Part shown: positions 21,494 through 22,504 of the stretch, piece after piece
Numbering within the stretch: the first letter of the stretch is position 1
Layout of the letters: every line of letters starts with the position of its first letter
DNA from: a virus
Length of the DNA: 24,294 nucleotides
IMG/VR virus record: IMGVR_UViG_3300042514_000052
Coordinates: 1 to 24,294 of that record
Strand: one strand, 5' to 3'
Program-made: the position numbers and the translations under genes
Notes under the pieces: generated by a model
Database searches by the model: none
Seen by the model: only the letters and a program-made list of their open reading frames with translations
Told to the model about the DNA's origin: nothing

Positions 21494-21868
21494 ATGAAGC
21501 TAACTAACAATTTTAATTTAAACGAGTTCAATAAGCATAATTTCCCGCTTACTGAAACTATTTTACGTAACATTCAAGAACTTGCTAAGAACTTACAAGT
21601 TTTACGTGATGAGGTAAAGAAGCCTATTAAAATAACAAGCGGCTTTCGTGATCCGTCTTTTAATAAGAAAATAGGCGGTGCTACTCAATCGCGTCATATT
21701 ACGGGCGAAGCTGCTGACCTTAAGATTGAAGGTTACACGCCTAAACAAGTAGCGGCAATAATTGAAAAGTTAATAGCTGCTGGTAAAATGAAACAAGGCG
21801 GTTTAGGAATATATAGCACGTGGATACATTATGACGTGAGAGGAACAAAAGCACGTTGGACTAAATAA
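21494..21868 (+). CDS. Endolysin, M15-family D-Ala-D-Ala carboxypeptidase-like
   Basis: A 124-residue protein with the full M15A peptidase signature. Near residues 48-55 is TSGFRDPSFN. SRHITGEAADL supplies the zinc ligands His68 and Asp75 (SxHxxGxAxD), and IHYDVRG supplies His112 with the H-x-D-x-RG ending. There is no signal peptide, so export needs the holin-like protein encoded just upstream. It would cut peptidoglycan peptide cross-links at the end of infection. The size is normal for a single-domain phage M15 endolysin. Confidence 0.88.
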   Translation: MKLTNNFNLNEFNKHNFPLTETILRNIQELAKNLQVLRDEVKKPIKITSGFRDPSFNKKIGGATQSRHITGEAADLKIEGYTPKQVAAIIEKLIAAGKMKQGGLGIYSTWIHYDVRGTKARWTK

Positions 21869-21874
21869 ATAATT

Positions 21875-22159
21875 ATGGCAAAGAAAAAAATAAACATTGA
21901 CACGGATAATTTAGACGTGAATTTAGAAAAAGACGGAACTAACATTAAGTTAGACATTGACACGAAGAACTTAGATATTCAGGTAGTACGTGACGAAATA
22001 AACAAAGAGTTTAATTTAGACGGTAAAAATATAGATATTCACGTGAAGAAAACCCCGGAGGGCGTGGAGGTGAAAGTCGATGCCAAAGGGGTTCTTTGGA
22101 AAGCAATTGCTAAAAGAATAGTAAAATTTATTTTAAGACGTTTCAAAGTAGGAAAATAA
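21875..22159 (+). CDS. Unknown protein with cationic amphipathic C-terminal helix
   Basis: A 94-residue protein six bases after the endolysin stop, last in the lysis unit. Residues 4-63 contain three similar units sharing (D/G)xxN(L/I)DI or V: INIDTDNLDVNLEKDG, 'IKLDIDTKNLDIQVVRDE' and FNLDGKNIDIHVKKTPEG. Residues about 71-94 form a strongly cationic amphipathic helix, with 9 Lys/Arg and no Asp/Glu (KGVLWKAIAKRIVKFI, then LRRFKVGK). This resembles membrane-active antimicrobial helices, and phage 'disruptins' are known to use such helices to break the outer membrane. The function here is inference from position and helix; a DNA- or membrane-binding structural protein is an alternative. Confidence 0.6.
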   Translation: MAKKKINIDTDNLDVNLEKDGTNIKLDIDTKNLDIQVVRDEINKEFNLDGKNIDIHVKKTPEGVEVKVDAKGVLWKAIAKRIVKFILRRFKVGK

Positions 22160-22177: not shown

Positions 22178-22240
22178 ATTTCATACGATGCTTTGTTTAA
22201 TTTATGATTGAAAGACCTCTACAACGGTAGGGGTTTTTTT
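22178..22240 (+). ncRNA. Candidate short RNA between promoter and terminator
   Basis: A consensus -7 box ends at 22172 and a strong terminator spans 22211-22240, with no ORF of note between them. If the promoter is active it would yield an RNA of about 60 bases made of a short unstructured 5' part and the terminator hairpin. The -33 element is missing, so the hairpin may simply end the lysis transcript. Confidence 0.3.
22211..22240 (+). terminator. Rho-independent terminator after the lysis genes
   Basis: ACCTCTAC (22215-22222), loop AACG and GTAGGGGT (22227-22234) form an 8-bp stem (one T-G pair), extended by AAAG against T residues, followed by T to 22240. It ends the late transcript and is nearly the same as the hairpin at 16911-16939. 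Confidence 0.88.
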
Positions 22241-22357: not shown

Positions 22358-22504
22358 ATGAAAAAACGAACAGGAATTTTAATTAACTCAATAATTATTT
22401 TGTTGGGTGCTAACTACGAAAGCTATTTATTATTAGGTGCTGGCGTATTATGTTTATCTTTAGTATTAATTTCTAAAACTAAAAGAGATGAAGTCAAAAA
22501 TTAA
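22358..22504 (+). CDS. Small membrane protein
   Basis: A 48-residue protein, first in the cluster downstream of a consensus promoter. It has a basic start (MKKRTG) and two hydrophobic stretches, about 7-18 (ILINSIIILLGA) and about 23-39 (YLLLGAGVLCLSLVLIS), then a charged tail. This could be a helical hairpin in the inner membrane. Small membrane proteins in early phage clusters often serve in exclusion or host takeover, but there is no motif to support a specific role. The gene overlaps the next by 17 bases. Confidence 0.55.
   Translation: MKKRTGILINSIIILLGANYESYLLLGAGVLCLSLVLISKTKRDEVKN

Follow-up and report, generated by a model that had tools for sequence, protein, structure and literature searches.

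The lysis cassette in this viral record ends with a small gene for a protein of 94 amino acids, here called P94. Within the window, that is, the whole stretch of 24,294 nucleotides analyzed here, the cassette is arranged in the order holin-like protein, endolysin, and P94, and all features are collected in Table 1. According to the ORF coordinates, 6 nt lie between the stop of the endolysin and the start of P94. The holin-like protein of 83 amino acids matched no family of Pfam, PHROGs, or NCBIfam, and from the layout and its position we infer a holin function. As a strong intrinsic terminator stands downstream of P94, this gene closes the late operon. The hairpin was found by folding, whereas the terminator scan had missed it, and of 75 relatives, 50 have a terminator-like hairpin within 250 nt of P94. 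Scanning the window with Rfam gave no hit. Just past the terminator (positions 22358–22504), an ORF of 48 amino acids that has two hydrophobic stretches (MKKRTGILINSIIILLGANYESYLLLGAGVLCLSLVLISKTKRDEVKN) is retained in the relatives G002 and G007 with 63–90% identity and could encode either an early membrane protein or an alternative holin.

Table 1. Features of the lysis cassette and their positions in the window.
Feature	Position	Strand	Basis
Holin-like protein, 83 aa, a single modest hydrophobic segment	21239..21490	+	Layout and position; 78/80 P94 loci
Endolysin, M15 peptidase type	21494..21868	+	PF08291, E 2e-21; PHROG 894 endolysin, E 2e-34
P94, 94 aa, final lysis-cassette protein	21875..22159	+	ORF; 60 variants; relatives on ~100 IMG/VR contigs
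Three 20-residue repeats (residues 5–24, 25–44, 45–64)	21887..22066	+	Offset-20 self-match; strands in low-confidence models
Degenerate fourth repeat (residues 65–84), entering the C-terminal helix	22067..22126	+	Same 20-residue register
Cationic C-terminal segment (residues 71–94)	22085..22156	+	Sequence, 18-mer comparison, variants, models
Intrinsic terminator, operon end	22210..22239	+	13-bp stem, −14.2 kcal/mol, z −4.25

P94 starts with MAKK, continues in a 20-residue register with KINIDTDNLDVNLEKDGTNI, KLDIDTKNLDIQVVRDEINK, EFNLDGKNIDIHVKKTPEGV, and EVKVDAKGVLWKAIAKRIVK, and finishes with its C-terminal end. A previous sequence-only reading had described it as three short acidic repeats fused to a 24-residue helix with nine Lys/Arg and no acids. 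The repeats were reproduced, as the offset-20 self-match score of 91 was matched at any offset by none of 5000 shuffles. Their acidic character turned out to be mild, with 16 D/E versus 12 K/R in residues 1–70 (net −4), and a degenerate fourth copy follows them. The composition of the C-terminal segment also held, since residues 71–94 (KGVLWKAIAKRIVKFILRRFKVGK) comprise nine K/R and zero D/E, but the helix predicted by the low-confidence models covers only approximately residues 74–90. Among the 6671 18-mers in the listed proteins of the window, no other one combined a charge of at least +6 and the absence of D, E, and P with a comparable moment. Throughout all 60 variants, the charge of the segment is +7 or +8, and 59 of them are free of acids in this part. 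The gathering of aliphatic and aromatic residues on one face proved weaker than described, as the hydrophobic moment of 0.45–0.56 was not above that of shuffles of the same composition (p 0.16–0.23) and R89 and L87 fall off their respective faces on a hand-drawn wheel at 100 degrees per residue. The term amphipathic thus rests on the composition and a wheel with two off-face residues.

With regard to membrane signals, lipobox and hydropathy scans, which are simple rules rather than trained predictors, detected no lipobox in P94 and no transmembrane segment either (maximum hydropathy 0.85 over 17 residues), and no signal peptide was found in it. Hydrophobic residues alternate in the strands at positions 13/15/17, 24/26/28, 53/55/57, and 64/66/68 and remain hydrophobic in 60 of 60 variants. 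Structure models built from 14 and 28 close sequences reached pLDDT values of 53.5 and 57.5, which is low confidence and too low for reliance. Both place helices at approximately residues 35–46 and 74–90 and suggest that the C-terminal helix is buried in a small alpha+beta domain. The repeats are probably beta-rich, and the alternation of hydrophobic residues in the strands would form a sheet for which a lid is required. We infer that the second helix of a small alpha+beta domain packs onto the sheet by its hydrophobic side and turns its conserved cationic face outward. The earlier suggestion that the acidic repeats keep a free helix inactive was not supported as it stood; the repeats resemble beta strands whose hydrophobic face needs the helix as a lid. 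Fold searches returned only common alpha+beta arrangements, which were not taken as kinship (best VIA-align Z of 7.0, KEOPS Pcc1), and the best BFVD match, with an E value of 0.06, was likewise read as a common arrangement without relationship. A sequence search of the PDB with P94 gave nothing better than E 0.4.

P94 is a real, conserved gene. Its relatives all lie on environmental contigs, and the 60 distinct proteins show a median dN/dS of 0.13, with 0.11 in the repeats and 0.14 in the helix. When P94 and the 83-aa holin-like protein were searched by tblastn against 50,697 phage records, no match was obtained at E values up to 1. Likewise, no family in Pfam, PHROGs, or NCBIfam matched P94 above the cut-off, and this includes peptidoglycan-hydrolase domains as well as nucleic-acid-binding families. 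The best PHROG, 644 (unknown function, E 0.004), was below the cut-off and taken as compositional, and the sole match of one scan of bacterial genomes, a Legionella protein with 23% identity, was taken as a coincidence of repeat composition. Ten loci with the motif of the cationic helix in other contexts resolved into four P94 members, one unrelated ORF, and five cases without an ORF by the rule used. Judged by the terminase, the closest isolates are phages of Flavobacterium psychrophilum (55% identity), which makes a flavobacterial host likely, and the hosts of the uncultured P94 phages are probably Flavobacteriia.

Across 80 P94 loci, the gene follows the lysin directly in 74, at a distance of either 6–7 or 1–2 nt. 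The upstream gene is the M15 endolysin in 52 loci (6–7 nt gap), five of which carry an HNH homing endonuclease in between, and an unrelated lysin of 180–195 amino acids in 27 (1–2 nt gap), where P94 is kept; the one remaining locus is on a truncated contig. NUMOD4/HNH genes lie between endolysin and P94 at L036 5452–5994, L052 4159–4701, L057 4679–5215, and L067 1467–2003. Examples of the replacement lysin are found at L008 4127–4675, L026 3279–3866, and L064 5451–5999. This lysin matches PHROG 3000 (unknown function; E 2e-22 for the L026 version) and also an endolysin PHROG (E 1e-8), and its place in the 27 loci suggests that PHROG 3000 contains endolysins. A YkuD-like class is only putative for this lysin, as an H...SxGC pattern is the sole ground for the label and neither Pfam nor the PDB returned a match. 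Cassettes lacking P94 were considered as well, but all holin-like loci without P94 sit on contigs that end before the P94 slot.

The same cassette is carried by phages with different backbones. In G001, G003, and G007, the best terminase family is phrog_38 or phrog_2 instead of the window's phrog_5653, and the portal families differ from that of the window, as do the major head families where these were found. P94 of the same three relatives is 74–80% and the holin-like protein 58–90% identical to the window's proteins. Given that the cassette recurs in phages whose head and packaging genes are unrelated, it behaves like a unit that moves between phages. The assignment of P94 to the lysis unit was hence borne out by its fixed slot, its movement together with the holin-like and endolysin genes, and its persistence across the lysin swap. 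This strict linkage and persistence, together with the spanin slot that P94 occupies (see below), make it likely that P94 has a role in lysis.

The discovery of a spanin gene elsewhere in the genome had been named beforehand as a refutation of the proposed outer-membrane function. Eight of ten longer records from relatives have matching or overlapping ends (75–127 bp perfect, or 1.0–1.3 kb at 89–97%) and were taken as whole genomes of approximately 29–33 kb, with completeness judged from the end repeats only. Every coding-strand frame was scanned for a lipobox, and lambda Rz1, Bor, and T1 gp11 were recovered as controls. Using these simple lipobox and hydropathy rules, no credible spanin was found in any of the eight. 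The coding-strand scan gave no lipobox ORF at all in G001, G002, G005, G009, and G010, and a 65-aa lipobox ORF in G006 was judged spurious. In G004 and G008, a cysteine-rich lipoprotein without a transmembrane segment is encoded more than 1 kb downstream, in a set of small genes of early type. Of the two records whose ends do not overlap, G007 contained no lipobox ORF and G003 had two, of 35 and 29 amino acids, that are unlike spanins. The window's own record is incomplete; G009, whose terminase, portal, and major head protein are 98–99% identical to those of the window, has no spanin that could be found, and the phage of the window therefore probably has none either. Two relatives (L447 6866–7108, L453 13255–13503) encode, within a group of small genes of early type, a phage lipoprotein rich in cysteine (MKKVFIIAIACLSLTSCKKECNCGTI...) that perhaps acts in superinfection exclusion.

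In the isolate Fpv5, a Flavobacterium phage, the cassette slot that corresponds to the one of P94 holds a gene with the appearance of a spanin. Gp18 (L232 19301–19885) follows directly after a lysozyme-like gene, has LIIGC as its lipobox and a transmembrane segment at the C-terminus, and, while annotated as a hypothetical protein, is likely a unimolecular spanin. No lipobox ORF was detected in two stretches from other isolates, 7 kb around the P12024L endolysin and the hemulen6-1 late region, which indicates that spanins do not occur throughout this phage neighbourhood. Bacteroidetes phages have been reported with unimolecular spanins only (PMC12596118). A spanin could not be identified in 91 of 677 phages, and some spanin-less phages may require no outer-membrane protein whatever (PMC6139136).

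Based on these results, our preferred reading, to which we assign a probability of roughly one half, is that P94 is a third component of the lysis cassette that acts on the outer membrane in place of a spanin, its membrane activity being putative. Having neither signal peptide nor transmembrane segment, P94 would accumulate in the cytoplasm, folded as a small alpha+beta domain, its C-terminal helix packed with the hydrophobic side against the sheet. Upon opening of the inner membrane by the holin, P94 would enter the periplasm, and once the wall is cut, its cationic surface (+7 or +8) could bind the anionic lipid A/LPS. The helix would then leave the sheet and destabilise the outer membrane. 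The disruptin mechanism is one version of this outer-membrane reading. Arguing against it, P94 is conserved throughout and not in the helix alone, which fits a globular protein equally well, the helix moment does not exceed its composition, the models stay at pLDDT 53.5 and 57.5, and there is no detectable homology to the disruptin gp28 of phage phiKT. A more far-reaching proposal, which we regard as tentative and rather improbable, is that P94 founds a new non-homologous class, a "latent disruptin", in which a beta domain hides the cationic helix until LPS contact and which replaces the unimolecular spanin in a widespread group of Bacteroidota phages. Such a protein would meet LPS after the action of holin and endolysin.

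Other functions were weighed against the same observations. P94 might help the holin and set the timing of lysis, with the cationic helix on the inner leaflet of the inner membrane either promoting or restraining holin triggering, and the outer membrane left to mechanical rupture or another factor. The cassette linkage serves this explanation equally, P94 lacks an export signal, the inner membrane is anionic on its cytoplasmic side, and P94 co-occurs with the holin-like protein despite the change of endolysin. Nevertheless, we consider it unlikely, as P94 comes last, in the slot that holds the u-spanin-like gene in Fpv5, and no other outer-membrane component was found. Alternatively, P94 could be a folded alpha+beta protein with another late function, e.g., binding of nucleic acids or host proteins, that stands at the end of the late operon by chance. 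An ordinary alpha+beta domain that buries the helix face would fit the alternating hydrophobic strands and the low-confidence models, and cationic helix faces are common in nucleic-acid binders too. However, P94 travels with the lysis genes across unrelated backbones, is kept when the endolysin is exchanged, and matched no nucleic-acid-binding family, which renders this option quite improbable.

That P94 nearly unchanged accompanies two unrelated lysins speaks against a specific enzyme partner, and it is very unlikely that P94 serves the endolysin as an accessory subunit, i.e., a cationic helix on a separate protein that helps the enzyme to reach or cross membranes. For such a role, the genes are adjacent, 1–7 nt apart and probably co-translated, and cationic C-terminal helices, predicted to be amphipathic, have been described for membrane-active endolysins (PMC6139136, PMC10053066). 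There, as for P94, the helix has been suggested to pass through the outer membrane or disrupt it, but P94 has no detectable catalytic domain and carries the helix on a separate protein.

In comparison with known lysis proteins acting on the outer membrane, P94 comes close to the disruptin phiKT gp28. As far as its sequence and the citing literature (PMC12819732) describe it, gp28 is like P94 small and cationic, has no signal peptide or membrane anchor, and is encoded beside the endolysin; phiKT also appears in the list of spanin-less phages (PMC6139136). P94 is larger (94 versus 56 amino acids) and, unlike gp28, possesses a conserved 70-residue repeat domain and concentrates its charge in the C-terminal segment. 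The gene order differs as well, with endolysin, gp28, and holin in phiKT versus holin-like protein, lysin, and P94. The two proteins gave no BLASTP alignment at E values up to 100, and hhalign returned a probability of 0.15%. Of the traits of disruptins, P94 shows the location in a lysis cassette with endolysin and holin (provided that the 83-aa protein is one) and, by the simple rules applied to the eight relatives with matching ends, the spanin-less phage, while of the short cationic amphipathic helical peptide only the cationic segment is clear, which is part of a 94-aa protein, has a moment not above shuffles (p 0.16–0.23), and is helical in low-confidence models. Owing to the lack of detectable homology and the extra conserved domain, we describe P94 as disruptin-like in function without counting it among the disruptins. 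Unimolecular spanins such as T1 gp11 and proteins resembling Fpv5 gp18 share with P94 the last position in the cassette and the expected action on the outer membrane, but P94 has neither a lipobox nor an N- or C-terminal transmembrane segment, which sets it apart from unimolecular and two-component spanins. Its low hydropathy and the lack of a transmembrane segment also separate it from holins.

Few disruptins have been characterised so far, and P94 bears on the question of how phages that lack a spanin get through the outer membrane of Gram-negative hosts. It provides a specific and widely conserved candidate, probably from Bacteroidota phages, and comes with natural controls, namely its pairing with either of two unrelated lysins and a relative in which a spanin-like gene takes this slot. 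With this candidate and these controls, the question becomes directly testable by spanin complementation. A cationic helix with such natural shielding would moreover be a new design of a phage-encoded antimicrobial protein. Another small basic protein was observed in the phages L436–L445, where a conserved, very basic protein of 43–44 amino acids (MAKIVSVKIEKKKVKRPNVHAKTKSSKIKSSKLYKKKYKGQGR; L437 3363–3494 and equivalents) had no NCBIfam match. In these phages, the M15 endolysin is 54–55% identical, and the cassette ends with a protein with two transmembrane segments followed by the basic protein.
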